DNA of 46,378 nt from assembly GCA_029259015.1 (NCBI GenBank), contig JAPDJQ010000059.1, positions 1-46,378 of the forward strand, read 5' to 3'. Every line of letters starts with the position of its first letter. Within the stretch, counting starts at the first letter, position 1. The translations under genes and the position numbers were made by a program. The stretch is from Thermoplasmatota archaeon (GTDB lineage: Archaea; Thermoplasmatota; E2; UBA202; JdFR-43). The notes beneath the pieces were generated by a model that saw only the letters and a list, made by a program, of their open reading frames with translations, ran no database searches and was not told the origin of the DNA. Below, piece after piece: positions 4,701 through 26,836 of the stretch.

Positions 4701-4984
4701 TCTTCTTCTTTCCCTTTCCTATAATCATCATAGAAAAGGAGAGGATATGAATATATTCTTCCAGTACTTTTATCATAAAATACGCTTGCTGGTATCGCCG
4801 CCATATAAGCAAAATCATCCACCAAGCCATTCTCATCAAATTTTACAAATGTTGCCTTTTTCACAGGCACTACTTTTGCCCAGGAAACCCCTTCGAATCC
4901 AGATGGCAATTCTTCTATATCTTCTGCTATGGTTGGTAAGATAAACATTGAAACTATGATCAAAGGAATAACCTTGCGCAGCAT
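1715..4984 (-). CDS. Secreted, C-terminally membrane-anchored peptidase C25 (gingipain)-like protein with a cell-wall-binding-repeat-2-like segment
   Basis: N-terminal signal peptide, segment ASLINAPLLYVKPDEVPDSVIETMKKLGVRNIYFIDIGG, THGWHGGSG and AGSCLISNTYLHL motifs, C25-like GDPDLKVWSP ending, C-terminal TM plus KKKFK. Confidence 0.65.
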   Translation of the reverse strand: MLRKVIPLIIVSMFILPTIAEDIEELPSGFEGVSWAKVVPVKKATFVKFDENGLVDDFAYMAAIPASVFYDKSTGRIYSYPLLFYDDYRKGKEEELSLNARQGLDYFMEDWKIYSGKFKEIEYINVDEKPWKADNYTVIKSNDIYEIASKIALHDWSYSKEAVVAVVGDVLYGSYNRTENQVSGTISPKEIKEITLTGVKQDSIAPQYSDFYVPPEYKYIKADLYWPSVSWLPNIMFLATLGLLQGGLTIPAADPDLQLYCYYEDELMQVASSENWNILVGPYEELETYVYNPGKWKAAIVDIPTKGIFGERHGTIGQRAKDMLTGKVTYYIDLQLYPGEEIELPDVPPFMARNVDFELSWKGDGKLGLIIVDENNVAVGVATETNTSKQKLHLDQLGEGKYKAVIIQLTEANSSISYTLKYSWECKLPEKQANYIMNAAEGAVYASLINAPLLYVKPDEVPDSVIETMKKLGVRNIYFIDIGGKSSVKEEIGTMVDIKKEFNDLIPLYKEIRNTTQENDIVFTTIDPWSYWLVEKLKPEGEKNGALYVAPAAYLAAHHGAPLIAVDMHSQLSKAVVWHNEWWKKHAIRDEEPNIAAMYLSGKEVYDFLGSVGLDEPGEIESIITVAGQFDIGTPWDRMLVGVAYSGRIMGSPVDTSYWICRSVFYPAVIFANPALSKQGIMLINGSKSVRMPSGALKILKPSQEEQFYYPVLNSWITYCHRFNERASKYWGFNYTCASGVTPYYEPSNNPIDNNVLAKYGKYGAYWPDLTESEIVPFYLEKAGYDIAFTTNFSATMENLNRGVIMWLECTHGWHGGSGSLSFWDPYGVPGFFGINISLPTIEPNPWRGYEIYLPGYLDGSTEEPDVLSQSKLLGVDIVPARLSDIPIIKNTWIGQKAGYDGNIITVLFGRLRTKDYTGYDMDKALGNIHSCGFNAGSCLISNTYLHLTLVRHGSVFQVIDPWETSWYSAFAMEMFARDIALGKTVGEAFTNGIMHTGIGYLTKQWWWDIKENVCYFGDPDLKVWSPLYSWEKPDAIESYEVIDGHALFGATEYPHEIKEKGFGLYVIAFLVAAVVVGAVYMKKKFKEI

Positions 4985-5032
4985 GGTAAATAAATGAGAT
5001 ATTAATATTTAAGTATTTCATGTATTATCTTT

Positions 5033-5572
5033 ATGCTAAGCTATTCAAAACTCCGTAATATTGAACAAAGAGAGAAGGCATCTCCCTTTTTAACAGACAT
5101 AGGTCCAGATTTTTATAAGCAGGCAATTCAGCATATAAAAGAACTTGAGGAAAGAGTAGAGGAGGAAAAAATAAAAAATCCTGCATCTAAAAAACTTGTT
5201 TTGCTTGCAGATGAGTTAAGAAATACCAAAAGAGTTTGGGAAAATATATTTGAAAGAAGAGAGAAAAAGATTGTACTGGCTGCTCTATCAGCAGTAAGAG
5301 GCGGCAAGGCAATACCTGAAAATTTAACAAGAGAGGAAAAGGTATTTTATGATGCGCTAGTAAGTCTATTGAAAGAGCACAGGAAAAGAATTTTTGAAAA
5401 TCAAGAAAAAGAATTTGTGATAGTTAGAATTACAGAAGACATTCCTCAATTTGTGGGAAGCGATATGAAAAAATATAGCTTAAAAAAAGAAGATGTTATT
5501 TCTCTGCCTCCAGATGTGGCAAAAGTTCTTTTAGCAAGAGGGGCGGCGGAGGAAATTAAGGCGGATTTTTGA
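5033..5572 (+). CDS. GINS complex subunit (Gins51/Gins15-like)
   Basis: 179 aa with GINS helical A-domain and C-terminal small B-domain (EFVIVRITEDIPQFVGSDMKKYSLKKEDVISLPPDVAKVLLARGAAEEI). Confidence 0.8.
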   Translation: MLSYSKLRNIEQREKASPFLTDIGPDFYKQAIQHIKELEERVEEEKIKNPASKKLVLLADELRNTKRVWENIFERREKKIVLAALSAVRGGKAIPENLTREEKVFYDALVSLLKEHRKRIFENQEKEFVIVRITEDIPQFVGSDMKKYSLKKEDVISLPPDVAKVLLARGAAEEIKADF

Positions 5573-6284
5573 TTTCTTCCAGAAGCTTTGACATTATCTC
5601 TCCTGCTTTGCCTCTCAGCTTATAATCTGCAATATGACTTATCATTGTGTCTTCTCTATTTATTTCAATAATAGTTGCTCCTTTTCTTTTTGCTATTAAA
5701 GGAAGCTCAGCAGCTGGATAAACAACACAGGATGTTCCTATTACAAGCATTAAATCACATCTATTTGCCATATCAAATGCTTTTACTAATGCATCTCTTG
5801 GAATTGCTTCACCAAAGAAAATTATATCTGGTTTGATTATTCCCTCTCATTTGCACTTTGGAGGTAATTCTTCCAGATTTATTTCATCTATGCCATATTT
5901 TGCTCCACATTTCATACATGTAAGCCTGTTAAAATTTCCATGAAATTCGATTACATTTTTACTTCCCGCTTTTTGATGCAAGTTATCTATATTCTGGGTT
6001 ATCACCGCCTTTAATATGCCTTCCTTTTCCAGTTCAGCCAGAGCATAATGGGCAGGATTTGGCTCCACATCTTTAAAAGTCAATAGCATCTCTGCCAGCA
6101 TTTTCCATACTTTGGCTGGATTTGCCATAAAATTTTCTATGTAGCCATATTCATTTATGTCGTATCTGCTCCATAATCCATTTTTGCTTCTAAAATCTGG
6201 AATGCCCGATTCTGTTGAAATTCCTGCTCCTGTCAAAGCTATTGCAAATTTTGCCTCCTTTATTTTTTCTGCGACCTCCTTCAT
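5556..6284 (-). pseudogene. Sir2-family NAD-dependent deacylase interrupted by one in-frame TGA (complement 5847-5849)
   Basis: Frame continues without indel through TGA: ...[64 protein letters not shown]...; may be a recoded gene rather than a pseudogene. Confidence 0.8.
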
Positions 6285-7531
6285 GTTCCTTCCTTCCAGC
6301 TTTTCATATACTTTATCTGCTCCCTCGTAAGCTTATCTATTTTTATGCCCATTGTCTTCAATTTTCTTTTTGCTACTTCTCTGTCTATTTCCTCCGGCAC
6401 TCCATAAACTTTGTTCTTCAATTTGCCTTTATTTTTAACAAGCCATTTTACAGCCAAAGCCTGATTAGCAAATGACATATCCATTACATCTGGAGGATGT
6501 CCTTCAGCAGCAGCCAGATTCACAAGCCTTCCTTCTGCCAGCAGATAAATTTTTCTCCCATCTTGCAGTGTGTATTGAGTTACATTTTCTCTTATTTCTT
6601 CCTTGCTAACTGCATTTTCTTCAAGCCACTTAACATTTATTTCATTATCAAAATGGCCTGAGTTGGCAAGTACAGCACCATCTTTCATTCTTTTGATTGC
6701 ATCTCCATCAATAACATGCTTATTACCTGTTACAGTAACAAAAATATCTCCTATTTTAGCTGCCTCCTTCATGGGCATCACTTGAAAACCATCCATGGCA
6801 GCTTCTAAAGCTTTAATTTCATCTATTTCGCACACTATAACCTTTGCTCCCATCCCTCTTGCTCTATTAGCCAAGCCTTTTCCACACCATCCGTAGCCAG
6901 CAACAACAAAATTTTTGCCAGCAAGTAATAAAGAAGTTGCCCTCAATATTCCGTCTATTGTTGACTGACCTGTTCCATATCTATTGTCAAAGAAATGCTT
7001 TGTCATTGCATCATTTACTGCTATGATAGGATAGTGTAATATGCCTTCTTTTTCCATCACGCGCTGCCTGTTAACGCCTGTTGTTGTTTCCTCTGTGCCG
7101 CCTATAACATATTTAAGCAAATCTTTTTGCTCTGTATGCAATGTGGTAATCAAATCTCCTCCATCATCCATTGTAACATGGGGCTTTATTTTCAGAACTT
7201 GCTCAATGCACCAGTAATATTCCTTATTATTTCCACGCCATGCATATACAGCTATACCATTTTTTGCGAGGTATGCAGCTACACTATCATTTGTTGAAAG
7301 AGGGTTAGAGCCAGCTAAAGCGACTTTAGCTCCTCCTGCCTTTAAAGTTTTTATCAGCACAGCCGTCTCTTTTGTCACATGGAGGCATGCAGCTATTCTT
7401 ACTCCTTTCAATGGCTTCTCCTTCTCAAAATCTTTTCTTATATCCATTAAAACCGGCATATGCTGCTCAGCCCATCTTACAAGTTTTTCTCCTTCATCTG
7501 CCAACTTTATGTCCTTCACTTTATATTCCAT
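6281..7531 (-). CDS. ahcY: S-adenosylhomocysteine hydrolase
   Basis: [29 protein letters not shown]-like, [24 protein letters not shown]-binding motif. Confidence 0.95.
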
Positions 7532-9486: not shown

Positions 9487-9966
9487 ATGGCAGAAGAAGT
9501 GGAAGTTTTAGTTGAAGGCGGAAAGGCTACAGCAGGTCCACCAATAGGCCCAGCTTTAGGCCCTCTAGGCTTAAATGTGGTAGAAGTAGTGAAGAAAATA
9601 AACGAACTTACAAAAGATTTCCAGGGAATGAAAGTACCAGTTAAAATAATCGTTGACCCAGCAACAAAAAATTATGAGCTTAAGGTGGGCACACCACCAG
9701 CATCTGCGTTGATCATGAAAAGAGCGAATATTGAAAAAGGGTCATCAGATACAACTGCACCAGTAGGCAACATAACAATGAAAGATGTCATAGATATTGC
9801 AAAGATGAAAAAGAATGATTTAATGGGCAAAGATTTGAAGGCGAAAGCAAAAGAAATCGTAGGAACATGCGTTTCCATGGGAGTAACTATAGAAGGCATG
9901 AACGCAAAAGAAGTAATTAAAAAAATAGAAGAAGGAGAGTTCGACGAACTCTTTAAAGAGGATTGA
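9487..9966 (+). CDS. rpl11: Ribosomal protein L11
   Basis: ATAGPPIGPALGPLGLNVVEVVKKIN. Confidence 0.97.
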   Translation: MAEEVEVLVEGGKATAGPPIGPALGPLGLNVVEVVKKINELTKDFQGMKVPVKIIVDPATKNYELKVGTPPASALIMKRANIEKGSSDTTAPVGNITMKDVIDIAKMKKNDLMGKDLKAKAKEIVGTCVSMGVTIEGMNAKEVIKKIEEGEFDELFKED

Positions 9967-11923
9967 TTACGAAAATCTCTACCTCTTCACTCTTTTTATT
10001 TCCTGCATTGTCATATGCAATAACTTTTACTGTATGTGTTCCAAATACTTTTTCTTCCCATGTCCATTCATATGGAGTTGTGGTATCTTCAGCCTTATAT
10101 TCTCCATCGATATAGAATTCTACTTTTGCAATACCTGCAAGTTCATCTGTTGCCTGCGCAACTATTGTTATTTTTCCAATAATTATAGCTTTCTGGCCAA
10201 GTATTGGCAACACTTCTCTATCAAAAATGTAAAGCTTGCCAGGATGTGGTTTTTCAATAGCCAAGGAAGGCTTTGAATTATCAACAGTAAATTTGGCTGA
10301 AATATCTTTGCCTGTATTTCCTACTTCATCTACAGCAGAGATTTGTATTAAATATTCATTGCCATCTTCCAAGCCAGTTGTATTCCATAAATACTCGCCA
10401 TCATTTTCTGTGTTTCTAACTATTCTATGCCATGTTAGGCCATTGTTTGGGCTGTATTTTATTGTTATACCTGTTATCTCTCCATTGTCTGTTGCTTCCC
10501 ATTTTATTAAAACTTCTCCTCCTACAACTTCTCCTCCTACAGGAAATACAACTTCAACATGTGGAGGAGATAAATCTTCGATTTCAAATTGATATACGCT
10601 GCTAACATTTGAATTGCCTGAAGTGTCGATGGCATAAATGTAGAATTCATAGGTGCCAATTAAATTGTATGACCTGCTGGAATAATATATGCTATCTGTT
10701 TTATTCTGGAAAATGCTGAAGTTTTCGTAGCTTCCATCTGGATATGTTACATTAATGCGAACATCTTCAACAGCTACATTATCTGTTACGCTGGCAGAGA
10801 TGGTTAAATTTTTACCCACATCCTGTATAGCAGGGCTTGCTGCCACATCTTCTATTGCTGGAGGGATAAAGTCTCCTTCTATTATTTCAAATTGGTATGT
10901 GGCAGAAATAGCTTCATTTCCATTTACATCTCTTGCATATATAGAGAAGTTATATATGCCAGCAAGGGAATATGCCTGGTTGAAATAATATTTGCTGTTA
11001 TGCTGCATTATAAATTCATGGAAGGTTGCATCAGGATATGTTATATTCACTTTTACTTCAGCAACACCAAAATCATCTGTTACAGTGCATGAAATGTTGA
11101 CATATTCATTAATTTGCTGAACATCTGGATTTGCATTTATGTTGCTTATAACTGGCGGAGTATTATCAACTATACTAAATGAATAATTGAGCCATCCAAT
11201 ATTGCCAGCATCATCCATTGCCCTTATTCTGAATGTATAATCTCCTGCATTTAAGTTATAATAACTCTTTTGTTTGGTATAACCCCATGCACTCCAATCT
11301 GTATCATATCCATCGAGCATATATGAAAATGTTATGTTTTCCTCTGGTGATGTATCATCTGTTGCAGTCCATTCAAAATAGATGTCTCTATAGTTTATTA
11401 TTGCAGGAGGATAATCAATTAATGTTATGTCTGGAGGAGTGAAATCTCCCTCTTCAGAGACAGTAACACTTCCATTAATTATATTAACATTTGTACTCCC
11501 CTGAATAACAGCATTTTCAATATTTATATAAGATATACCAGCTGATATTGCTTGAAAAGTAATAATTGCAAGCGTTCCCTCTGTTGTTATATCCTCACTT
11601 GATGCACCTATAATGTATGTGATTGTGCCATTAACATTATCTATTTCTGCTACTCCAGGCAAATCCCCTAGCCAAATATCAAACATTCCTCCATTTTCAA
11701 CACTTATCGCCTGGAGTATGGATGGGTCAAACATAATGTCACATGCTGCTGACGAAATGGGCTCTACAGGGGTGATATTTATTTTCAGTGTAAAAGTTTC
11801 CCCTAAGCCCACAATTTTTTCTTGAGGGACTATTGAGATGGTGTTTAAATCTTCTCCTTTTGAATACCCTGCCAGAATAGAGATGAGTAAAATCGTTATG
11901 ACTATTCCAACCTTTCCTTTCAT
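9953..11923 (-). CDS. Secreted protein with one N-terminal cohesin-like domain and multiple Ig-like/FN3-like modules
   Basis: Signal peptide; cohesin-like fold sequence (ISIVPQEKIVGLGETFTLKINITP...ACDIMFDPSILQAISVENGGMF...GTLAIITFQAISAG); VDNTPP-linked modules; no C-terminal TM. Confidence 0.75.
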   Translation of the reverse strand: MKGKVGIVITILLISILAGYSKGEDLNTISIVPQEKIVGLGETFTLKINITPVEPISSAACDIMFDPSILQAISVENGGMFDIWLGDLPGVAEIDNVNGTITYIIGASSEDITTEGTLAIITFQAISAGISYINIENAVIQGSTNVNIINGSVTVSEEGDFTPPDITLIDYPPAIINYRDIYFEWTATDDTSPEENITFSYMLDGYDTDWSAWGYTKQKSYYNLNAGDYTFRIRAMDDAGNIGWLNYSFSIVDNTPPVISNINANPDVQQINEYVNISCTVTDDFGVAEVKVNITYPDATFHEFIMQHNSKYYFNQAYSLAGIYNFSIYARDVNGNEAISATYQFEIIEGDFIPPAIEDVAASPAIQDVGKNLTISASVTDNVAVEDVRINVTYPDGSYENFSIFQNKTDSIYYSSRSYNLIGTYEFYIYAIDTSGNSNVSSVYQFEIEDLSPPHVEVVFPVGGEVVGGEVLIKWEATDNGEITGITIKYSPNNGLTWHRIVRNTENDGEYLWNTTGLEDGNEYLIQISAVDEVGNTGKDISAKFTVDNSKPSLAIEKPHPGKLYIFDREVLPILGQKAIIIGKITIVAQATDELAGIAKVEFYIDGEYKAEDTTTPYEWTWEEKVFGTHTVKVIAYDNAGNKKSEEVEIFVINPL

Positions 11924-12020: not shown

Positions 12021-14603
12021 TTAGCTGCTCTTTGTTCTCTTCTTCCACACAGCCACTACTGCAACAGCTATTATTATTAGCACCACTATTATTATCAGAT
12101 AAAGCCATATGTTCACTTTTTCTTCAGTGACTTTAATCTGGAGTACTGTCTGATGTGTTGCCCCATCATTATCTATTACTGTTAGAGTTACATTGTATGT
12201 TCCTGCCTTAATATAGGCATGTGTTGGATTGATTTCATAACTTATGTTTCCATCACCGAAATTCCATGTGTAATTTACTATGTTGCCATCATCGTCAAAG
12301 GATAATGTGGCATTGAATTTTATTTCTTCTCTTATCTTTGGCTTATCTGGCTCATAAGTGAATTTTGCTACTGGCGCAACATTTGCTACTTCTATTATCT
12401 TTTGTGCTGTCTCAGTTGCTCCCTTATCATCTGTTACTGTTAACTTAACAATATATGTGCCATTATCTGCATACTTATGGGTTGGGTTCTGTTCATTGCT
12501 TGTTGTTCCATCTCCAAAGTCCCAGTGCCATGCAACAATCTCGCCATCCTCATCTGTTGATTGATCAGCAAATGTTATTGTATCCAAATCGGTTGGTTGC
12601 TGTGGAGAGAAACTGAAATCTGCTACAGGTGGTTTATTCTTTAATATTTCAAAAGTTACCTGATGTTGCACGCCTTCATTTCCTGCATTATCAACAGCAT
12701 AATATACTATGGTATGGGTTCCTTCAGAGCTTACAACATCACTTCCTGAATTTCCTGGGAATATCTGCCAGTTTCCTCCATCAAGTCTGTATCTAATTTC
12801 TTTTACTCCTGCAAGATTATCAGATGCCTGCAAAACAACTGTTACATCGCTCGTATATTTTCCATCTTCATATGTTCCTTGTAAGGTGTGCGTTGCTGTT
12901 GGCTTTGTTGTATCTACTGATACATCAAATTCATCAGATGCATTATTTCCTGCATCATCCCTTGCATAAAAGCTTATAGTATAGATTCCATCTGATAAAT
13001 TAAATGGCCCAGTATAATCCTGCCATGCTCCATTTACCTTGTACTTAAATTCTGCTAAATTGTCATCAAATGCTGATAATTCAACTGTAACTGTGCTTAC
13101 ATACCATCCGTTTTCTCCTAGGGTGCCCGTAATATTATATGAAAGAGTTGGCAATGTTTTATCTATCTTTATTGTTTCACTCTTCTCTGTCTCTGTATTT
13201 CCTAAATTATCCACTGCATAATAATAAAGAGTATGAATTCCATCTGCTGTTATATCAAATGCTCCTGTATATTCTGTCCAGTTTCCATCATCAATCTTAT
13301 AGTAGATTGCTCCTACGCCACTTCCATTTATATCAACTGCGGTTAAATTAACTGTAACTGTGCTTACATACCATCCGTTTTCTCCTAGGGTGCCAGTCAA
13401 TTCTATACTTGTTACTGGTGGAGTATTGTCGACATATACTGTTACATTATCAATTGGGCTTGTATTATTGAATTCATCTTCAGCGTAATATTCAATATAA
13501 TACATTCCTTCTTCTGGGAGATATATGATGGCGTTTGTATTTACTGCTTCACTCTGCCATCCTTGCCAGCTTCCATTCCATATGCGATAGTAAACAGTGT
13601 AATCATGGGCATCGGTTGCATTAATGTAAATAGGCGTTAAGGATGAAACCCAGTTGCTTCCATTATAATAAGGTGTACCAAACTCAAGTGTCACATCTGG
13701 AGGAGTTAAATCTGCCTCTAGAGTGGCATTTTGTAAAATTGAATAAAGATGTTCTCCATCAACATCTATAATATCCATGTTGGTAATGTTAATGTCTGTT
13801 ACTGCTGTTTGCAACGGCGTAAATTCTATTGTTGCTAAAGTGCCAGCATTTGTTACTCCTGGAGGAATTGGTGTCTGAATAGCAAATATACTCACGACAC
13901 CAGCAACATTATCTATGTTAGGAGTTAGAGTACTAAACAGCCCTCCATCAGTCACTCCAGTTACCTGGAAATAATTTGGATCAAAAGTAATGTCGAAGGT
14001 CATAATAGAGAGTTCGTTTCCATTGGGATCTACAGTAACGTCAAAGAGAGCTGTCTCATTTCCTATCAAATTATAAGCTGGCTCAATCGAAACATATACT
14101 GGATAATTTCTCACTTCAACAGTTGCATTATTTAAAGTTAAATCATATGGAGGTACCAAGCAGTCTCCGCTTGATAGATTTATGAATGCAGTTCCAACTT
14201 TTTCTTTTGCCTTAAAGGTGATTCTAGCAAAAACACCTCCTGAAACAGGTGTAATGTTTTCTCCAAGTGGAACCATTCCCCATATATCACTTATGGTACC
14301 GTTTATGTTGTCTATAGTACCGTTTGAAGCCAATGTATCAAATATATCTCCATTCTCAACCTTGATAGCCGTTAATAAAGAGGCATCAAATGTGAGCCAA
14401 CATTGCACAACGGTAATATTTTCTGCATCTACTACAATGTCCACAGTAAATGTATCATTGAAATAAACCGCCTGATGTGAAGGCAGAATACTCATTGTTG
14501 CTGTTCCATTTTCTCCATGTGAAACAGGTAAAACTAAGGAGAATAATAGAATAAAGGGAAGAGAGGCGATTATTGCTTTCCTTATGCTTTTCATTTTCAT
14601 CAT
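12021..14603 (-). CDS. Membrane-anchored surface protein with two cohesin-like domains, OmpL47/Ig-like repeats and two PKD domains
   Basis: Two cohesin-like blocks (MSILPSHQAVYFNDTFTVDIVVD...; VSIEPAYNLIGNETALFDVTVDP...); PKD motifs WHWDFGDGTTSNEQNPTHKY and YTWNFGDGNISYEINPTHAY; C-terminal TM plus KKRTK; start 14603 chosen because of GGAGGG RBS and to avoid upstream overlap. Confidence 0.8.
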   Translation of the reverse strand: MMKMKSIRKAIIASLPFILLFSLVLPVSHGENGTATMSILPSHQAVYFNDTFTVDIVVDAENITVVQCWLTFDASLLTAIKVENGDIFDTLASNGTIDNINGTISDIWGMVPLGENITPVSGGVFARITFKAKEKVGTAFINLSSGDCLVPPYDLTLNNATVEVRNYPVYVSIEPAYNLIGNETALFDVTVDPNGNELSIMTFDITFDPNYFQVTGVTDGGLFSTLTPNIDNVAGVVSIFAIQTPIPPGVTNAGTLATIEFTPLQTAVTDINITNMDIIDVDGEHLYSILQNATLEADLTPPDVTLEFGTPYYNGSNWVSSLTPIYINATDAHDYTVYYRIWNGSWQGWQSEAVNTNAIIYLPEEGMYYIEYYAEDEFNNTSPIDNVTVYVDNTPPVTSIELTGTLGENGWYVSTVTVNLTAVDINGSGVGAIYYKIDDGNWTEYTGAFDITADGIHTLYYYAVDNLGNTETEKSETIKIDKTLPTLSYNITGTLGENGWYVSTVTVELSAFDDNLAEFKYKVNGAWQDYTGPFNLSDGIYTISFYARDDAGNNASDEFDVSVDTTKPTATHTLQGTYEDGKYTSDVTVVLQASDNLAGVKEIRYRLDGGNWQIFPGNSGSDVVSSEGTHTIVYYAVDNAGNEGVQHQVTFEILKNKPPVADFSFSPQQPTDLDTITFADQSTDEDGEIVAWHWDFGDGTTSNEQNPTHKYADNGTYIVKLTVTDDKGATETAQKIIEVANVAPVAKFTYEPDKPKIREEIKFNATLSFDDDGNIVNYTWNFGDGNISYEINPTHAYIKAGTYNVTLTVIDNDGATHQTVLQIKVTEEKVNIWLYLIIIVVLIIIAVAVVAVWKKRTKSS
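13083..13127. repeat. 45-bp exact direct repeat, copy 1 (inside the two-cohesin gene)
   Basis: aactgtaactgtgcttacataccatccgttttctcctagggtgcc; identical to 13350-13394. Confidence 0.9.
13350..13394. repeat. 45-bp exact direct repeat, copy 2
   Basis: Identical to 13083-13127; 267-bp (89-codon) period. Confidence 0.9.
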
Positions 14604-14617
14604 CCCTCCTTTAATGC

Positions 14618-14794
14618 TCAACCAGTCCATTTCAGTATTAGCATGTAGATATCATCTGCATTTATTACGCCGTCTTTGTTCAAATCTTCAGGTATCCATC
14701 CTGGGGTGCCTGTTTCCTCCCAGTGTAATATTATCTGGTACAGATCCATTACGTTCACTCTGCCATCTCCATTGATGTCCTCTGGTATTGGTGG
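14618..14794 (-). other. Dockerin type I-like domain (two F-hand repeats) at C terminus of the giant protein
   Basis: Duplicated D-x-N-x-D-G-x-[VI]-N-x-x-D calcium-binding loops separated by a short linker. Confidence 0.93.
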
Positions 14795-17700
14795 TACATA
14801 GCAGCTTGCCTCAGCTGTTGGAGTTGTTGATTTGGCATTGCCTAGGTAGTCCTCTGCATATACATAGAACTCATAGTAGCCAGGCTTGTAATATGTTGGA
14901 TGTGGTGCATATATGAACTGCCATGTATAGCTGTCAACGTCTTCAACGCTTCCATATTCCATCCATGATGTCCATGTTACACCATCTTCGCTGTATCTGT
15001 AGTACAATGTCAACTTCTTCACTCCAACCACATTATCACTTGCAGTAACTGTTATGTTGAATGGCATTGTATCATTTCCTTCTATGGATATACTTGTTAC
15101 TGGAGCTGTATCATCGATTATGAACTTCTGCTTGTACTCATCTGTAATGTGTCCAAGCATGTCTGTTGCCTTGAAGAATATGTGATACAATGTTCCTTCA
15201 GCCAGTCCAAAGGCGGCAGGTGTAAATGAATGACTTGCTGTGTGTGCGCCGTCATAACTTGCTGTCTCATACCATGTTATGCCATCGAAGCTCCAGAATA
15301 TCTTGTCAATGCCTGCATCGTCTTCTTCTGGCATATCTGTTGCATTCAACCATATGAGAGTATCGCTTGTAATTGCATGTCCTATCTCTTCGCCAAGATT
15401 TATTTCAATGCATGGCTGTCCATATTCTTTGGTTATTACCGGTGGCTCAGTATCAGGTATTACCCAGCATTCTGCATCATATGTTCCGTGCTCGAATGGT
15501 GGCTGTTCTTCATTGGCGAGGCAATCATATGCAATTGACTTGAAGCGATACCATCCTGGTCCTTCTGGAGCATCAAATGAGAATGTCCAGTTCGGCACAT
15601 CATTTCTCAGATCCCATGGAACTTCATATGTTGCATATAGCTTCCAGTCTCCAAATGTTACATTGTTGGAGCTGTATGAATAATACACGTCAACCTTGCA
15701 TACACCTATTGGTCCAACTGCCTCGAATCCAAAGTCTTCAATGTCCACCACTGTTATATCAAATGGAACTTCTTCTCTCACATATGGAACTATGTCATCA
15801 ACTCTTGAAATTGGTGGCATTGCATCAACCCATAAGTGCTGCTTGCTTAGCTGGTAGTCTTCGACATGGCTTACGTTATCAACAGACCAGTGAAAGAGTT
15901 CAACTATTCCTGCATCCAAACTTGGATTGGATTCGAAGTAGTCTATGATATCATCATAGCCCATTATCTGGGCAGCCTCATCAACTGTAAACCAGTGCTT
16001 GCTTGTTGTGAATACTCCTGGATAATATGGCTGTTCAAAGGTATCGGCTCCATACTTCCAGAGGAGTATTGGATCCTCCTCCCAGAACTTGTACCATGTT
16101 TCATTCACGCCACTATCCCAGATGAAATTGTCTGTTCCATTGAGCCATATCTTTGTGCTTGGAGATACCCAGTGTATTACTTCTCCTCCCGCAATCTCCT
16201 GCTCAATAACTGGTTCGCTGAATTCTTTCTTGGTGCGTGGTGGTGTGCAGTCAATACATACATCCTGTTTCTGTTCGCCAATTGTCATGTTGTTGTAGTC
16301 ATACACCTCCCAGTGTATCTCATACTTGCCACATGGATCTCCATTAACGAGTTCTCCGAGATGTATCCATATTGCAAAGTAGTCATCCCAGTATCCTCCA
16401 TCATAGAATATTCCATCATATGGTGAGGAATCATACAATGAATATGCCCTCGTCCATGGAATTATTGGCTCCCAGTATCCAGCTCCTCCAAACACATCTC
16501 TTATCTTCAGTGTCCATACACCAGTGAAATCAATATCCTCAACATGGTACCATCCATCATCGTACATGGTGTCGTATGGAGATGTCCAATATACATACAT
16601 GTAATCAGAAACGCTCCAGTTGCCGTCTCCGTTGGTATCTATCCAGTCATAGATATAGCCAGCTTCTTCTCCTTCGATATACACTGTTGCTCCGTAATAT
16701 AGTGTTGGTAACTCATTTGTTAACAACTGTATCTCAACCTCATTTGATACCCATCTCCAGACAGTGTAATCAATATACCATATTCCAGTCTGACACTCTG
16801 TATTATTTGGCAGGTCTGTTGCATTTATTATGAACCATGTACAGTTCTGGAAGTATATTGTGTTGTCTGGGCCGTAATAAACATTACCATTACTCACTTC
16901 AAACTCTATATCTGTTACAGGTGCTTCATCATCTACGCCAACATGCCATACATTTGGCTCTTCAGTGTTGCACAAGTCATCCTTGCTGAAGTAATACAGC
17001 CAGTGCTCGCATCCTTCTGTGAAGTTGAATGGTTCTGTGTATTTCATCCACCAGTAACCATCAATTTCATCTGCATAACTCGATACGTTTATATCTCCGC
17101 CCCAGATAGCACCAGGTGTTTCAGCAGTTGGATAGTATTCATACTCTCCACTGCTCTCATTATACCATACCCATCTGTAGTATGTTGCATTGCTCCAGTT
17201 GTATGGATATATGCATGGCTCTGTGCCATAATGAATTGCTGTAAGATTGATGTAATCATTTATGCATATGACAGATGGAAGAGAACCTCTGCCATAACCA
17301 TCGTAATAGTCATTCTTCGGTATTTCTGGATGGTCCGCCCATTCAACTGTTAGCTCTGTATATGGAGCTGTTCCATCAACATACCAGCGCTCGTGGAATA
17401 TCTCTGTTCTGTGGCATACATTGTCTTTGGCAAAGTAATACAAGTCGTGTATACATTCCTCATTGAATATTATGTCTACCTCATCGTCATATACAACATA
17501 CCACCAGTAATCAGTTATATTTTCGTCGGTATATCCATATCTTTCTGCTAATTCTTTTCCATGTACAATCTCATCATATCCAGTTCCATATCCGTCTCCT
17601 TGTGGTGGATATGGATATTCCTCTCCGCCAGTCTCATATCTCCAGAATATTGCCTCAACACCTGCATCACACTCGCTATCTATTGGTTGATCTATAACTT

Positions 17701-20700
17701 CAAGATGTATTGGTGCTCCTTCTCTCAGGAAGCCTAATGATGTGATGTTGATGTTATCAACAGCCCAATACTCATTATAATAACCTGAGCCAGTGAATCC
17801 GTCTCCATAGTTTGTAGTGAATCTAAATGCTATGTAAACATCCTTACCAGCATAATCCCATAATGAGATATCTACTGTTCCTGATTCACTGTAATTACTT
17901 GCATCCCAACTCCTGAGCACGGTAAAGTCAGCTGGATCTGTTCCTGTTGTCGATATTAGCACCTCTCCTTTTCCTCTGTTGCAATACCATTCATTATAGA
18001 ATGTCAGATTGCTGAATTTCGGCAAGTTTGGAATCAATGGGCTAATGAGCCATTCATCCTGCTCGCCATGCCATGGCATAATTAAAGCAGCGCTGTAACG
18101 GAATAGATTTGAATCGGGATGTGACCATCTATCCCATGTCTGATAATCTGTATCGTTGATGGCATCATAGTCTCCATAACTCTTTTCCATCCAGCCAGCT
18201 GGTGGGAAGCTTCGTTCAAATCCATCTTCAAATGTTGTCTCTGTTATTTCTCTTATTTCAACCTTTACGTCGTCAACATACCAGCCACCGTCTTTAACAG
18301 AATTGTCACTGTAAAATCTATATCTTATATACACCGTTTGTCCAATATAGCCACTTATATCAACGAATTCCTGTACCCAATCTCTGCTTCCAGTATATGT
18401 TGCAAGTGTTGTCCATGTTGTTCCGTCTGTGCTTATCTCAACATAACCATAATCGGCATCCTCCTCCATGTCATATGTATGCCAGAACATGAGCATTGCT
18501 TTCTTGCCAGTATATGTTGCATCTGTTAAATCAATTGCTGGAGATATTAGGGCATCGTTCATGCAATTGAGGTACATACTGCTTGAGTCATCTCCACACC
18601 ACCATGAATGATTATACGAATGATAATCAGTATCCACAATATGCCATCTGCTTGTTTCAAGCATTTCTCCGACCCAATTGCTCATATCGGGACTGCCAAC
18701 AGTTCCGAAATCATCAAAGAAGAATGGAGTTGTTGAATTGGAAACATTCACACTATCGATGAATACTCCATTTGCAGGCACTGCATCATCATCGCTGACG
18801 AAACGGAATCTTATCCATACGGTATCATTTCCAATATAATCTGATAAATCAATTGATTCCCATTCCCATGACTGATCTGCTGTAAATGTTGCCAAAATAT
18901 CCCAGTTACTGCTATCATTGCTTGCCTCAACATATAGTGTATCTCCACTCACATCCATCCATAATGTAAAGTTAAGCCAGACTGTATCAGACGGATCTAA
19001 AGATGAGAGATCTATCGGATTAGCAATCGTCAATGTATCATTCCAGTTGCAACCATACTGTCCAAAGCCATTATAGTTTGGCAAACTTCCGTCATAACAG
19101 TTGACTGCTGGTGCAGGCGGAGTATCCAGATAAACAGGTACTCTATTCACTGCAGTCCAATAGCTACCAGTAACTGTCAAGTCCTCAATATCCCATGCCA
19201 TGCTATCTTCAATGTCATCCTCAAATGGTGTAGCTATGCGATGTATGCCGCCGATCCACACATCATCAATGTATATCTCTCCGCTTATAACATGGAATCC
19301 TATGTATATTTCCTGTCCAGCATATGCAGATAAATCAACCTCTACTCTTCTATACATGGAATCTGTGAATGTACCAGATGTCCATAGCTGAGTGACGAAA
19401 GCAGTTGTCTCTGTCTGATCTGGATCAGTTGATACCTTTACTTCGAATTCTCCATTACCCATATAATAGAATGTGAGGTTGCCATCTTGTGGAACTGTAA
19501 TACGTGGGCTAATAAGCCATCCATCCTCACCATAAGCACAATATCTACCAGAACGAGGCATATTATCCCAGTATGGCCACCAGTCACTTATGCGATACCA
19601 GTCTCCTACCACTGCCCAATCAGTAAATGGAACTTCGAAGTCCTCAAATAATGACTGTGTTGCATTACCAATTGCACCATGCTCCGGCAATGTTTCTTCT
19701 ATAATTGGTGGAGAAGCATCAACAAAGTATACCTGATGATGTACAGTGCTGTTATGACATGCTCTATCCTTAGCCCAGTAATACAAATCATGTCTGCATT
19801 CTTCATCAAATGATATGTTTGTCTCATTGTCATATACAACATACCACCAGTATCCTGTTATGTTCTCATCATATCCATATATGGCGAACTGGCTACCATT
19901 TATTGCTCCATATTCTCCCTCCTGTGGATATTCTGTGTCATTCCACACATATCTCCAGAATATTGCCTCTATACCAGATGGACACTCGCCTGGATCCTCT
20001 GCGGTAAGTGTAATATTTACGCCTGCCTTCAGATAATAGGTGACATTTTCAATTTCAACCCACCAGTGCCATATACCTTCTCTCAAGAATTCCCAGTTAT
20101 CATAAACATAAACATATACGTAGTGGGTACTTTGTGGAGAAACTTCTACAGTAAATGTTATCGAGTCTAAATTGGTTCCATTTTCAAGCGTTATACCGTC
20201 ATCGCCCTCTACTTCTTCTATATGGAAGGTGAGTATAGCTGCCTTGTTTGGATCGTTGTTAGTGATAGTGAATCTTGCATAAGTATACTTATCAATGTAA
20301 TTGCCCGCCTGTTGCTGCATCCATCCGCCACCATACCAGTCTGTCCATTCATCAATGACTTTGAAGAAACCTTCATACTTATTTGAGCCATCATCATGCC
20401 ATCGATCAACTTCTATTTCTACTGGTGTATAATATCCATGTTCTGGATGTTTCTTATAAACTACTGGGTTGTATTCATCAACATGATATACCTGCATATA
20501 TACTGGAGTATGATGACACACGTTATCCTTAGCCCAGTAATACAGCCAGTGTATGCATTCCTCACGGAAGTGCACACCGATGCTATCGTCATACACATAC
20601 CAGAGATAATGACCACTGAAGTTTGTCCGTATTTCTTCATCATCGTAATAATCTCTGATATCTACAACCTGTCCATATTTTGATACATTATCGCTCTCAT

Positions 20701-23700
20701 TTGCAGGATGCCATACGTCATTGTAGTAATAGCCAAAGTATATTCCTTCTATGCCAGAGGCACATGGATTGTCTGTATATGACATTATCTGGAATTTCCA
20801 GTCAAAATCTGTTTTTTCTTCTCCGCTTATCCATGCATGCCCTCTCGTATATTTATCTTCTGTTGCAAAATACCATGATGCATTTGATGGTGGATTTCCA
20901 TGTGCTTCAATATAATATGTTTCGCCTGGTGTAACTGCAATTCCTGGTTCAAACGTGAATGTTACCCAGTCCTCGCCTGTTCCGCTTAAATGCTTGCTTG
21001 CGCTTCCAATTACTGCAAAGCTTGCATCATGTATGTAAATGGTTACGTCCACATCTCCTATCCATTTCAGATACAACGCTGTTGCATTTATATAACTTGC
21101 ATTTGGCATAAATGTTTGTGCATCCCATGGCCATATTACACCTGTGGTATAATTCTGCAATGTATCCAACTCATTTCCCTCTGTCTGGGCTTGATCCACA
21201 ACAACCAGTTTTTCTGGTGTATCAACAGCAGTTAAGTTAATTCTTGCACATTTCTGTATAAATGGCACGGGATCAACAATCAAATCCCAGGTGACATTTT
21301 CAATAGTCCAGTTATGCCACTCGTTGGTTTCAGTATCATTTAGCATTATCTTTGTTCCAATATCCAATGGTGCGCTTGACCATGTGAGATTATACATATT
21401 ACTGAATGTTGGATAAACTTCATGCCATAATGAACCAAGTGGATTCGACTTGAGGATACTGAAATCGGATGTCCAGGAACCATCATAATAGCCAGTAAAC
21501 TCCACATATTTTGTCTTATTGAGTGTCTCATTATATATCTCAAGTGTTATTGTCATATTCTTTATGAGGTAAAGACGATGTACTCCATATTGAGTGTCCA
21601 CGAGTTCTATATAATCTCCATCATCTGCTATGTTGTTTCCGTTACTATCAACATAGCTATCAAATTTTGGATAATAGGTGCCCTCATATTCTCTTCCGAA
21701 TTCATCAGTTGGATAGAACTGTGTCCAGTTTAAGTAAGCAATCCACTCCTCCAATGTAGGAGTGGTCCATGGGTTAGCTTCTGCAGGCCAGTTATTAGGA
21801 TGCAGATATATTATAGGTTCATCCTTATAGCATACTGGATGTTCCTTGTAAACCTCTGGGTCATAAGCATCAACATATATGTCAACCTTCGTTATATTAT
21901 CACTTGTATTAATTGTATTATCCAGCCAGTCTGAAGCTTCATAGAAGTAATATATTGAATGCAAGCATTCCCTATTAAATCTTAACGGAACCGATGCAGT
22001 TCTTGGCACAATCTTCCACCATAACTCACCATTTATTTCAACAACCTCTCCATATTCATCATCACTGTAATTTGCTGGATGCTTTTCTTTCTCTGGAGTT
22101 GTATAATTCCAGTATTCATATCTCCAGTAGAATGTGAAATCTCTCCATCCAACTGCACATTCTGGCTCATCTGTCAAGTTAAGCCAGAATGTTTTGCCCG
22201 CCCTTACAAACTGCTTTCCTGTCTCCTCATCATAATAGAAGCCATGCACATCTGGATATTCTATATGCAATTCTGGCGGGCTATCATCTACATAATGAGT
22301 CTGATTTATAATGCGTACATTACCAAGCAAATCCTCTGCTCTTATCTGCAATATATGCTTGCATTCTTCATGGAACTGTATCTTTGTGAATTCAACTGTA
22401 TCATTAATTGCAACATACCAGTATTTGCCATCTACATAGGTTATGTTATAATTACCACAATACATGTCCTTGCCATCTACTGGATGCCATGTATCATTGA
22501 ACCATATTCTGTAAAGTAGATTCTTCACTCCTACTCCTCCCATGCACCATTCATCCCATGTACTCAGAACTAATGTTGCCTGAGTAGTAAGCCATGTTCC
22601 ATTTAAGCCATCATGCTCTTCTCCCACACTATATTCTGTATATTCCATTGGATAGAAGTATGGATATATTGGATAATACTCTATCTTGAAGGCAAAATCA
22701 CATGAATAATTAACTTCTCCATCTACAATTGCGTATCCGCCTGCATATGGATTGCTTTCGTTGTAATACCAGTGTAAATCAGCATATGATTTTACAGTAA
22801 GCCAGTATGTTGCACCATGCTCCACATATAGACGCTCTGTCAAATGGAACTGTATCCATCCATCTACCTCGTCATCTATTTGTTTAACTTCTGAAGATGC
22901 CAACAGATTTCCTTCGTCATCCCATATCTCCACCCATGTATCATTTGTCTCAAACACTACATCTCCTGAACCAACTAACTTAACGCTTACAGCATCAATA
23001 TAACTCCATGGAGCAGCGAAACTCTGATTATCATCCCACATTGACCCTCCTTCTCTAAGATTTCTTATAGAAACAAATTTTCCATCTAGGGTTTGTTCTA
23101 GCGCTACTATCTTCTCAATATCTTTTCTTATGGCTGGTGGTGTATTATCTACCCAGTGCTTCTGCTTAGTAGACATATTGTTGCCAACATAATCCATTGC
23201 CCAGTAGTGTATCTCATGGCAGCAATCATATTCCAAGAATGTAACATTTGAGATATAACCTACTCTTGGATCCAAATCTCCTTTTTCATTATCAATAATA
23301 ACTACCTTCTCATATCTTGTTGTATTCCATTGCTCGCTTTCATTAGTACAATTTTCCTTCCACCATATCTCATAGCCAAACTTCCATACTCCTGCTCCGC
23401 CTCCGCAGCCAACATCACTTATATTGAACCAGATTGGTGTGCGATTTGTTACCCAAGTTGCATTTCCATAAATGCCTGGCTGCTTTGGTTCTCCAATCTC
23501 TTTAACTATTACAGGTGGTGAACAATCAACGGCGATATCAATATCAAATGGTCCATTGTGATTGCCTAGATAATCATCCATCTCCCATATTATTTCATGG
23601 AAGCATTCCTCTCCAATAAACTGATTTATATCCACAGATATCCTGCCAACTGTCTCGTCCAAATCGTATACGCCATTATCCATTACACTAACTTCAGTAA

Positions 23701-24604
23701 TCAAATCAAAAGGTCCAGGCTGATCTGGATTCCACCATATTGAGAAGTTAAGCCAAGCTGCACCGCTTGCATCATCTGTTACATTAATCCACATTGGTGT
23801 GGTACAATTTATTGCAGGGAATCCCTGAATTGTGTAATTCGGCTCACCAAATACTGGTGCCGTATATGGAGGAGGTGTTGTATCATATCCTGCACCCGCA
23901 TCTGCAGTCGAAGGAGCGGCTTCAGTATTACCTGCTGTATCATTTGCTATACTATAAAACTCATAAAATCCTTCTCCATCTGGAAAATCAAACGAGAATG
24001 ACCATCCATCACTTCCATCGGTGTCTTTTGCAAAGAATGCCCATGCACCCCATGTTGCATTATCTGTTGAATATCTATACCACAGAGAAACATTTGCCAA
24101 AGCATAATTATCACTTGCTGTAACTGTTATTGTAATAGGTGCATTATTAGTCCAATATGGTACAATAGGATCAACAGTCGATGTTGGAGGTGTGGTGTCT
24201 TGTACTACAAAGGTACCTGATGACGAGCTCCATCCTGTACCATCATATGTATTTACAGTATAGGAATATGTTCCTAATGGGTCTGGATATTGATAAGTTC
24301 TATTATAATACCATATAGTGTAATATGTATTAATGGGTATAGGATTCATTGAAAAATTACCCAATAAGGTTCCATCTGGATAATAAATTTCAACCCATGC
24401 TTCAGTAGCATCGCTTATATTCGCAGTTATGTTATTATATCCTGGAACTTCTACTGGATCTGGTGCATCATCTACCGAATTTATTGTAGGTTGTGCCATT
24501 ACATAAATTACAAACGCTACTATTACAGCAACAGCTATTGCCATTATCCCCATTACCAGCTTCTTATTTCTAATACCCTTATCCTTCATACTTATTCTAC
24601 TCAT
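14618..24604 (-). CDS. Giant (3328 aa) secreted/surface protein with Cys-containing Ig-like modules, MAM/choice-of-anchor-J-like domains and C-terminal dockerin
   Basis: Uninterrupted 9987-bp ORF; N-terminal hydrophobic signal; repeated E-C-x-H modules; C-terminal DINGDGRVNVMDLYQIILHW...DLNKDGVINADDIYMLILKWTG. Confidence 0.9.
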   Translation of the reverse strand: MSRISMKDKGIRNKKLVMGIMAIAVAVIVAFVIYVMAQPTINSVDDAPDPVEVPGYNNITANISDATEAWVEIYYPDGTLLGNFSMNPIPINTYYTIWYYNRTYQYPDPLGTYSYTVNTYDGTGWSSSSGTFVVQDTTPPTSTVDPIVPYWTNNAPITITVTASDNYALANVSLWYRYSTDNATWGAWAFFAKDTDGSDGWSFSFDFPDGEGFYEFYSIANDTAGNTEAAPSTADAGAGYDTTPPPYTAPVFGEPNYTIQGFPAINCTTPMWINVTDDASGAAWLNFSIWWNPDQPGPFDLITEVSVMDNGVYDLDETVGRISVDINQFIGEECFHEIIWEMDDYLGNHNGPFDIDIAVDCSPPVIVKEIGEPKQPGIYGNATWVTNRTPIWFNISDVGCGGGAGVWKFGYEIWWKENCTNESEQWNTTRYEKVVIIDNEKGDLDPRVGYISNVTFLEYDCCHEIHYWAMDYVGNNMSTKQKHWVDNTPPAIRKDIEKIVALEQTLDGKFVSIRNLREGGSMWDDNQSFAAPWSYIDAVSVKLVGSGDVVFETNDTWVEIWDDEGNLLASSEVKQIDDEVDGWIQFHLTERLYVEHGATYWLTVKSYADLHWYYNESNPYAGGYAIVDGEVNYSCDFAFKIEYYPIYPYFYPMEYTEYSVGEEHDGLNGTWLTTQATLVLSTWDEWCMGGVGVKNLLYRIWFNDTWHPVDGKDMYCGNYNITYVDGKYWYVAINDTVEFTKIQFHEECKHILQIRAEDLLGNVRIINQTHYVDDSPPELHIEYPDVHGFYYDEETGKQFVRAGKTFWLNLTDEPECAVGWRDFTFYWRYEYWNYTTPEKEKHPANYSDDEYGEVVEINGELWWKIVPRTASVPLRFNRECLHSIYYFYEASDWLDNTINTSDNITKVDIYVDAYDPEVYKEHPVCYKDEPIIYLHPNNWPAEANPWTTPTLEEWIAYLNWTQFYPTDEFGREYEGTYYPKFDSYVDSNGNNIADDGDYIELVDTQYGVHRLYLIKNMTITLEIYNETLNKTKYVEFTGYYDGSWTSDFSILKSNPLGSLWHEVYPTFSNMYNLTWSSAPLDIGTKIMLNDTETNEWHNWTIENVTWDLIVDPVPFIQKCARINLTAVDTPEKLVVVDQAQTEGNELDTLQNYTTGVIWPWDAQTFMPNASYINATALYLKWIGDVDVTIYIHDASFAVIGSASKHLSGTGEDWVTFTFEPGIAVTPGETYYIEAHGNPPSNASWYFATEDKYTRGHAWISGEEKTDFDWKFQIMSYTDNPCASGIEGIYFGYYYNDVWHPANESDNVSKYGQVVDIRDYYDDEEIRTNFSGHYLWYVYDDSIGVHFREECIHWLYYWAKDNVCHHTPVYMQVYHVDEYNPVVYKKHPEHGYYTPVEIEVDRWHDDGSNKYEGFFKVIDEWTDWYGGGWMQQQAGNYIDKYTYARFTITNNDPNKAAILTFHIEEVEGDDGITLENGTNLDSITFTVEVSPQSTHYVYVYVYDNWEFLREGIWHWWVEIENVTYYLKAGVNITLTAEDPGECPSGIEAIFWRYVWNDTEYPQEGEYGAINGSQFAIYGYDENITGYWWYVVYDNETNISFDEECRHDLYYWAKDRACHNSTVHHQVYFVDASPPIIEETLPEHGAIGNATQSLFEDFEVPFTDWAVVGDWYRISDWWPYWDNMPRSGRYCAYGEDGWLISPRITVPQDGNLTFYYMGNGEFEVKVSTDPDQTETTAFVTQLWTSGTFTDSMYRRVEVDLSAYAGQEIYIGFHVISGEIYIDDVWIGGIHRIATPFEDDIEDSMAWDIEDLTVTGSYWTAVNRVPVYLDTPPAPAVNCYDGSLPNYNGFGQYGCNWNDTLTIANPIDLSSLDPSDTVWLNFTLWMDVSGDTLYVEASNDSSNWDILATFTADQSWEWESIDLSDYIGNDTVWIRFRFVSDDDAVPANGVFIDSVNVSNSTTPFFFDDFGTVGSPDMSNWVGEMLETSRWHIVDTDYHSYNHSWWCGDDSSSMYLNCMNDALISPAIDLTDATYTGKKAMLMFWHTYDMEEDADYGYVEISTDGTTWTTLATYTGSRDWVQEFVDISGYIGQTVYIRYRFYSDNSVKDGGWYVDDVKVEIREITETTFEDGFERSFPPAGWMEKSYGDYDAINDTDYQTWDRWSHPDSNLFRYSAALIMPWHGEQDEWLISPLIPNLPKFSNLTFYNEWYCNRGKGEVLISTTGTDPADFTVLRSWDASNYSESGTVDISLWDYAGKDVYIAFRFTTNYGDGFTGSGYYNEYWAVDNINITSLGFLREGAPIHLEVIDQPIDSECDAGVEAIFWRYETGGEEYPYPPQGDGYGTGYDEIVHGKELAERYGYTDENITDYWWYVVYDDEVDIIFNEECIHDLYYFAKDNVCHRTEIFHERWYVDGTAPYTELTVEWADHPEIPKNDYYDGYGRGSLPSVICINDYINLTAIHYGTEPCIYPYNWSNATYYRWVWYNESSGEYEYYPTAETPGAIWGGDINVSSYADEIDGYWWMKYTEPFNFTEGCEHWLYYFSKDDLCNTEEPNVWHVGVDDEAPVTDIEFEVSNGNVYYGPDNTIYFQNCTWFIINATDLPNNTECQTGIWYIDYTVWRWVSNEVEIQLLTNELPTLYYGATVYIEGEEAGYIYDWIDTNGDGNWSVSDYMYVYWTSPYDTMYDDGWYHVEDIDFTGVWTLKIRDVFGGAGYWEPIIPWTRAYSLYDSSPYDGIFYDGGYWDDYFAIWIHLGELVNGDPCGKYEIHWEVYDYNNMTIGEQKQDVCIDCTPPRTKKEFSEPVIEQEIAGGEVIHWVSPSTKIWLNGTDNFIWDSGVNETWYKFWEEDPILLWKYGADTFEQPYYPGVFTTSKHWFTVDEAAQIMGYDDIIDYFESNPSLDAGIVELFHWSVDNVSHVEDYQLSKQHLWVDAMPPISRVDDIVPYVREEVPFDITVVDIEDFGFEAVGPIGVCKVDVYYSYSSNNVTFGDWKLYATYEVPWDLRNDVPNWTFSFDAPEGPGWYRFKSIAYDCLANEEQPPFEHGTYDAECWVIPDTEPPVITKEYGQPCIEINLGEEIGHAITSDTLIWLNATDMPEEDDAGIDKIFWSFDGITWYETASYDGAHTASHSFTPAAFGLAEGTLYHIFFKATDMLGHITDEYKQKFIIDDTAPVTSISIEGNDTMPFNITVTASDNVVGVKKLTLYYRYSEDGVTWTSWMEYGSVEDVDSYTWQFIYAPHPTYYKPGYYEFYVYAEDYLGNAKSTTPTAEASCYVPPIPEDINGDGRVNVMDLYQIILHWEETGTPGWIPEDLNKDGVINADDIYMLILKWTG
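17740..19655 (-). other. Four tandem MAM/choice-of-anchor-J (cleaved-adhesin-like) domains inside the giant protein (approximate limits)
   Basis: Four blocks with FEDFE.../W...WLISP.../LTFYY.../VEISTDGTTW.../VDISGYIGQTVYIRYRF.../WYVDDVKV patterns. Confidence 0.65.
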
Positions 24605-26173: not shown

Positions 26174-26836
26174 TTACCTTTTGTCACTTTTTTCTCCTAG
26201 AGCTTTCTTTATTTCTTCCAGAAACATTTCCTCTGGAATTGCTCCAACTATTTCTCTTTCATCATTTATTATTGTTTTGGGCACGCCCATAACATTGTAT
26301 TTCTGGGCTAGGTGAGGAAACTCAATTGCCTCTATCATATCAGCCCTTATATTTTCGTTTTCCACTGCCATCTGATGAGCTATATGCACCATTGTGGGAC
26401 AGTAGGGGCATGTTGGAGTGACAAAAACTTGTATATGTAATGGTTGTTCTATCTTCTTTATCTCTTCTCTAACCTCTTCCTTAAGGTTTGTTTTTCCTGT
26501 CGAAGCATGTATTATATCCTCTATCAACGTTGAAAATTCATAGCCAGAAGGGATGCCAAAGAAACGAATGCCATATTCCTTTTTCCCAAAAATTAAAGTT
26601 GCAGGAATTTTATCTACGCCATATTTTTCTGCAACTTCCTTCTCCTTATCAAACTCGTGCACTTCCAGTCGTATCTTATCACTTAAAGCAGTAATTTCTT
26701 CAAGAATTTGTCTAGTTTCTTTACAAAACTGGCATTCAAAATCCTGTGTGAAATAAATTATTTTTACTTCTCCTTCCATTTCTTTTTCAAATCTATCCCG
26801 TATGTATTTTTTATCCTCGTCGCTTATAAACGGCAT
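26174..26836 (-). CDS. Protein disulfide oxidoreductase/glutaredoxin-like protein (two thioredoxin folds)
   Basis: Two CxxC active sites, CQFC and CPYC, in 220 aa. Confidence 0.88.
   Translation of the reverse strand: MPFISDEDKKYIRDRFEKEMEGEVKIIYFTQDFECQFCKETRQILEEITALSDKIRLEVHEFDKEKEVAEKYGVDKIPATLIFGKKEYGIRFFGIPSGYEFSTLIEDIIHASTGKTNLKEEVREEIKKIEQPLHIQVFVTPTCPYCPTMVHIAHQMAVENENIRADMIEAIEFPHLAQKYNVMGVPKTIINDEREIVGAIPEEMFLEEIKKALGEKSDKR

Follow-up and report, generated by a model that had tools for sequence, protein, structure and literature searches.

The window analysed here comprises positions 1-46,378 of contig JAPDJQ010000059.1 of a vent-type archaeon from an uncultured Thermoplasmatota lineage. 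Its minus strand carries an ATG-initiated open reading frame without internal stops (14618-24604), which encodes a giant secreted dockerin protein of 3328 residues built from repeated modules with an E-C-x-H signature. We incline, if only modestly, towards reading this protein as a docked surface stalk of OmpL47-type immunoglobulin (Ig)-like modules, in which successive modules would be stapled to one another through cysteine, possibly together with histidine. The system brings together a Cys-rich Ig module with no Pfam description and a conserved cohesin-dockerin operon from archaea that lies outside the setting of cellulose degradation. The C-x-H motif and the B-C-loop Cys of the next module form a signature suggesting covalent or metal stapling of neighboring Ig modules. 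If true, this would provide a testable natural design for stiff protein stalks, along with a defined docking pair in an uncultured lineage.

According to this reading, the protein would be secreted as a long chain of Ig-like OmpL47-type modules, with ligand-binding-like domains (choice-of-anchor J/MAM, jelly-roll-like) spliced into single modules and projecting from the stalk. Its dockerin most likely fits into a cohesin on the membrane-anchored product of the gene directly downstream. This docking would hold the stalk non-covalently on the cell surface, where it may play an adhesive role. The E-C-x-H Cys at the start of strand F, on the lower pole of module n, would meet the Cys that module n+1 presents in its B-C loop at the upper pole; about a third of modules also have a Cys in the F-G loop, which would join the same junction. 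The staples, most likely disulfides with a Cys/His metal site as the chief alternative, would keep the chain stiff, much as Ca2+ stiffens the linkers of SiiE and of RTX adhesins.

The repeat and its relation to OmpL47-type domains

All eight C-x-H motifs quoted in an earlier note on this DNA are present in the translation, at residues 334, 461/462, 748, 880, 1350, 1603, 2384, and 2532; a ninth C-x-H, at residue 1363, is a separate site. The pattern [EGDR]C.H.[ILV].[YFWI] matches the protein eight times, whereas across 2000 shuffles it averaged 0.013 matches and never exceeded 1, which rules out a chance origin of the repeat. The upstream C-x-x-G-type Cys attributed to most modules occurs, as C-x-x-G-[IVAW], in six of the eight (residues 400, 687, 816, 1281, 1541, and 2312). 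Modules 3 and 10 depart from this rule: module 3 has no such Cys, and instead an extra Cys267 lies just ahead of strand B, while module 10 reads PCIYPYNW at this site. The modules had also been described as ending in C-x-H followed by VD-x-x-P. The motif itself holds, but the VD-x-x-P boundary lies ~25-40 residues further on and C-x-H therefore does not close the module. Asp, Tyr, Thr, and Trp are abundant in the protein, which contains 44 Cys in total and 91 sequons of the N-glycosylation type. Its sole hydrophobic segment is an N-terminal signal or signal-anchor helix (residues 13-41, 24482-24568 on the minus strand; hydropathy 2.91).

The Ig-like modules follow one another on the same strand. 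Module 3 (residues 247-363, 23516-23866) carries EECFH and Cys361 in the linker, and module 4 (residues 364-489, 23138-23515) carries YDCCH with Cys400 in the B-C loop; both are defined by motif and AlphaFold2 model. Module 5 (residues 490-776, 22277-23137; EECKH) contains an inserted domain at residues ~500-655. It is followed by module 6 (residues 777-915, 21860-22276; RECLH), module 7 (residues 916-1379, 20468-21859; EECIH) with a domain inserted between strands B and C at residues ~1130-1275, and module 8 (residues 1380-1631, 19712-20467; EECRH). Module 9 (residues 1632-2413, 17366-19711; EECIH) is split by ~640 residues of inserted choice-of-anchor J/MAM-type domains (residues ~1650-2290, 17735-19657; NF038128 E 9e-32 over four stretches, PF20773 E 7.4e-12). 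Module 10 (residues 2414-2560, 16925-17365; EGCEH) has four Cys and includes the best stretch for the NCBIfam profile NF047446 (barrel_OmpL47, residues 2514-2554). Modules 11-15 (14789-16924) lack E-C-x-H, module 11 being a CGKY variant with a linker Cys. The large insertions proposed earlier are whole domains that split several modules (5, 7, and 9), and the inserts of modules 5 and 7, ~150 residues each, are alike by eye.

The earlier note recognized no named family, and no Pfam family does cover the modules: a Pfam scan of the eight single modules gave no meaningful match for any. Homology to OmpL47-type domains (NF047446, named after Leptospira OmpL47) is nevertheless detectable. The whole giant protein scores 42.7 bits with this profile (curated cut-off 40), while single modules fall far below the cut-off (four of eight listed; first 15.7 bits, best E 8.6e-4). 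The neighboring gene at 12021-14630 encodes four clear OmpL47-type modules (168 bits), to which hhalign matches the E-C-x-H modules at 96.1% (E 3.7e-9), compared with 0.1% for a control with a reversed alignment. The alignment superposes EECxHxLYYWAKDxxGN on EGxHTLYYYAVDxxGN. In addition, a protein encoded at another locus (L031, open reading frame 3362-7384) has DDEGTHTIEYYAVDYLGN and then DEECTHWINITSIDDLGN, with the Cys and Gly forms side by side. Because of this alignment and the adjacency of both forms in one protein, E-C-x-H is the E-G-x-H of OmpL47-type domains with Gly replaced by Cys. By the same comparison, the module is a diverged, Cys-bearing relative of the VDxTPP Ig-like repeat. 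Both share [GC]-x-H-x-[IL]-x-[YF]-x-x-x-D, the SG-V-x-x-I-x-Y strand, and the VD-x-T-P-P boundary; the giant protein differs in the Cys for Gly of E-G-x-H, the added B-C-loop Cys, and the long insertions. A ligand-binding motif special to the giant protein is made less likely by the family-wide E-G-x-H position that E-C-x-H occupies, though the motif may still have a metal role.

AlphaFold2 models bear out the Ig-like assignment made earlier. Modules 3-4 were predicted with a predicted local distance difference test (pLDDT) score of 89.6, and four tandem modules of a relative (L039) with 82.4; the alignments are shallow and the models were read for strand order only. In Foldseek, the best matches come from tandem domains of the Ig/FN3 type, among them SiiE, RbmA, and CbhA (E 1.6e-7 to 4.8e-6). 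The two-domain TM-scores are only 0.24-0.47, probably due to domain orientation. Together with the hhalign match, the Foldseek matches rule out a new fold.

Dockerin, cohesins, and their conservation

The C-terminus of the giant protein and the operon that follows, neither of which appears in the earlier note, suggest how the stalk may be attached. Residues 3275-3323 form a type I dockerin (14627-14782, minus strand; PF00404 33.6 bits with gathering score 22.9, E 4.5e-8; cellulosomal dockerins in the PDB, E 6e-6). Its two repeats have intact F-hand Ca loops of the form DxNxDGxxNxxD, DINGDGRVNVMD and DLNKDGVINADD, as read from the translation. Directly downstream, and overlapping by 13 nucleotides, the gene at 12021-14630 (minus strand) encodes a membrane-anchored partner of 869 residues with two cohesins (14178-14471, PF00963 E 2.8e-9, scaffoldin cohesins in the PDB E 5.6e-5; 13776-14036, PF00963 E 4.9e-9), the four OmpL47-type modules, two PKD domains, and a C-terminal transmembrane anchor (residues 836-866, 12033-12125; hydropathy 3.56). 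The third gene on this strand (9953-11923) combines one cohesin (11456-11803, PF00963 E 2.2e-12) with Ig-like modules, and hydropathy reveals no transmembrane helix in it. PF00963 scores the two neighboring genes at 51.8 and 42.5 bits (gathering score 24.1), with three cohesin stretches in the window. Pfam and NCBIfam scans find no hydrolase and no recognized enzyme domain in the giant gene or its two neighbors, and a cellulosome is ruled out by the lack of any dockerin-borne hydrolase domain in these three proteins.

Profile searches count two dockerins and six cohesins in the genome. The second dockerin protein (L035, G000:C33, 4687-8415, minus strand) has 1242 residues with FG-GAP/beta-propeller and DUF11 regions and one ECYH module. 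The next gene encodes a papain-family peptidase with PKD domains (2645-4627, minus strand; PF00112 E 5.5e-36).

Relatives were collected by searching for the E-C-x-H module, and the sequences are metagenome-assembled genomes (MAGs). Dockerins are present in 39 of the 100 relatives, cohesins in 42, and E-C-x-H modules in 26; the named matches of a search with an alignment of three close module rows are Thermoplasmatota or Euryarchaeota MAGs. The order of giant dockerin gene, two-cohesin gene, and one-cohesin gene recurs in G005, G008, G011, and G012, with some of these loci truncated at contig ends (the G008 contig stops inside the second, cohesin gene). These genomes represent three other genera (g6, g3, and g2) of the same Thermoplasmatota family. 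Their giant dockerin proteins, of 3033 (G008), 3268 (G012), 3671 (G011), and 3833 (G005) residues, contain 8-11 C-x-H each and are followed by cohesin-bearing genes. A giant dockerin gene also adjoins a two-cohesin gene in a Thermoplasmata MAG (L048), and the giant protein of a very close relative (L037, contig JAJRYN010000030) is 90% identical over the first 668 residues.

A second pair recurs among these genomes, consisting of a dockerin protein of ~840 residues with FN3/PKD-like modules, then a two-cohesin protein (L011, G002:C101), with similar places in G001, G010, G004, G011, and G005. Another locus (L040, 7883-15286) encodes about nine tandem E-C-x-H modules, each with three Cys (B-C, F, and F-G) and no large insertions, and is a cleaner target for structural work.

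Position, covariation, and chemistry of the cysteines

In all six modeled modules, the E-C-x-H Cys either is the first residue of strand F or lies just ahead of it, and the first Cys, where present, lies in the B-C loop, about five residues ahead of strand C. In the Ig/FN3 fold, the B-C and F-G loops lie together at one pole, opposite the pole where strand F starts. With this predicted strand order, the two Cys within a module would be expected at opposite poles and hence far apart, and the E-C-x-H of module n would be turned towards the B-C and F-G loops of module n+1. The models thus speak against the within-module pairing put forward in the earlier note, which probably does not occur.

Covariation was examined at profile-mapped positions in 391 distinct motifs (~400 modules) and in 268 distinct adjacent pairs without insertion. 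Over these pairs, the E-C-x-H Cys of module n-1 and the B-C Cys of module n covary (216, 11; 10, 31) with an odds ratio of 61, compared with 37 for the two Cys of the same module. For the 35 cases in which the two neighbors differ, the B-C Cys agrees with the preceding module 21 times and with its own 14 times. Of the contrary cases, six belong to a distinct CGxY class; a linker Cys (VDC) is present in 5/5 distinct motifs of this class, versus 15/313 elsewhere. Module n has an F-G Cys in 87/268 cases that follow a Cys at the E-C-x-H position and in 0/55 that follow another residue there. Covariation is therefore compatible with a link from the E-C-x-H Cys of one module to the first Cys of the next, and favors it after one post hoc exclusion: on a non-redundant set without the CGxY class, logistic weights are 4.16 for the previous module and 1.80 for its own, with a bootstrap P of 0.006 that, like the other figures, shows direction rather than probability because the modules are related by descent. 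The within-module covariation is real, probably as part of a between-module link.

A disulfide within each module, from the C-x-x-G Cys to the E-C-x-H Cys, would account for the strong same-module covariation (the B-C Cys is present in 268/317 modules with the E-C-x-H Cys versus 22/78 without) and for an isolated module in L031 (residues 847-948) that carries exactly both Cys, with none in the neighboring modules. We consider it distinctly unlikely, given the opposite poles in the models and chains that often open with an E-C-x-H module lacking the first Cys and close with a first-Cys module lacking E-C-x-H. The L031 module is nonetheless one of several observations that count against stapling between modules. 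An isolated module in L033 has the E-C-x-H Cys only, and several modules in the window contain odd cysteines with no assigned partner. With all pairs kept, the logistic weights of previous and own module do not separate (3.08 and 3.04), and the CGxY class was chosen for omission only after the data had been seen. As regards a disulfide staple in particular, neither VKOR (this genome, 86% complete, and 22 relatives) nor a DsbA-like thioredoxin (Thioredoxin_4; this genome) was found, and this does not favor dedicated extracellular disulfide formation. The window does encode a protein disulfide oxidoreductase, at 26174-26836 on the minus strand and thus a few genes upstream of the giant gene (TIGR02187 297.8 bits, cut-off 185), but proteins of this type are generally thought to be intracellular.

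That neither VKOR nor Thioredoxin_4 was found would suit a metal clip between modules, possible if doubtful, in which the C-x-H of module n and the B-C Cys of module n+1, often with its F-G Cys or the His that follows, would bind metal. His occupies position +2 of the motif Cys in 312/313 distinct motifs. To this invariance the seed profile made no difference, as a profile trained on G-type modules only left the result unchanged (His in 191/191 with Cys; with Gly, 33 His and 35 Tyr of 72). Co-occurrence of Cys and His fits a packed disulfide or a metal site, although such strict conservation exceeds what a disulfide needs. Three-Cys junctions, odd for disulfides, are common, and the residue after the F-G Cys is mostly His (35) or Asn (20). 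Conversely, two thirds of the junctions have no third Cys, and the His may be merely structural because about half of the G-type modules have it too. Stated more broadly, and just as tentatively, consecutive Ig-like modules may be joined by a modular clip of thiol and His, perhaps with a bound metal, between the C-x-H of strand F and, in the next module, a Cys of the B-C loop together with a Cys or His of the F-G loop; if true, it would stiffen tandem Ig chains in place of the linker Ca2+ of cadherin-like and RTX adhesin chains. As for docking, it is unlikely that the dockerin has its cohesin at another locus or has no cohesin partner at all, with the giant protein released or anchored by its N-terminal helix and the operon reflecting co-expression only. 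The genome does have cohesins elsewhere, in a further two-cohesin protein (C49) and in one additional gene (C85), and the N-terminal helix is strongly hydrophobic, but adjacency and gene order are kept across several genera.

Related systems and other genes of the window

The docking principle is already known, since dockerin-cohesin sets, including multi-cohesin proteins, have been described in anaerobic methanotrophic (ANME) archaea (PMC9012536). With these and other cellulosomal and non-cellulosomal systems (Clostridium, Archaeoglobus), the operon shares a type I dockerin with two Ca loops and a two-cohesin partner. It differs in that a giant Ig-repeat protein would be docked, a C-terminal transmembrane helix accompanied by Ig and PKD modules would serve as anchor, and no enzyme domain is recognized. 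A literature search found no description of an operon pairing cohesin genes with a giant E-C-x-H protein, and searches on interdomain disulfides in Ig adhesins and on Thermoplasmatota dockerins returned nothing specific.

Among giant adhesins, SiiE and RTX proteins have linkers stiffened by Ca2+ (PMC5466336, PMC7493085). By analogy, the giant protein may work like them: it has a similarly long tandem Ig-like chain, its junctions would be stiffened as well, and SiiE is among the best fold matches. In place of linker Ca2+, Cys (and His) are found at the junction, and attachment would be through a dockerin. The Mobiluncus giant adhesin, also an Ig-repeat surface protein with covalent cross-links, disulfides among them, is reported to have these inside single domains (PMC10619420), while the link proposed here is between domains. 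VARTIG proteins of Thermococcales are likewise large archaeal Ig-domain surface proteins with conserved cysteines; the text of that paper (PMC8416519) mentions neither cohesin nor dockerin, and their gene context differs from that of the giant gene.

Three other genes of the window deserve mention. The product of 1715-4984 (minus strand, 1089 residues) has N-terminal signal-like and C-terminal transmembrane helices, a weak CW_binding_2 match, and no solid family or PDB match; by eye it resembles C25-type peptidases. A Sir2-type deacetylase frame (5847-6284, minus strand), right after adenosylhomocysteinase, covers the first 147 of 242 profile positions and looks truncated or frameshifted. Finally, 44327-45475 (plus strand) encodes an SO_0444-type Cu/Zn efflux permease (NF033936, 328.7 bits) with, by eye, a heavy-metal-associated-like domain at the end of the frame.

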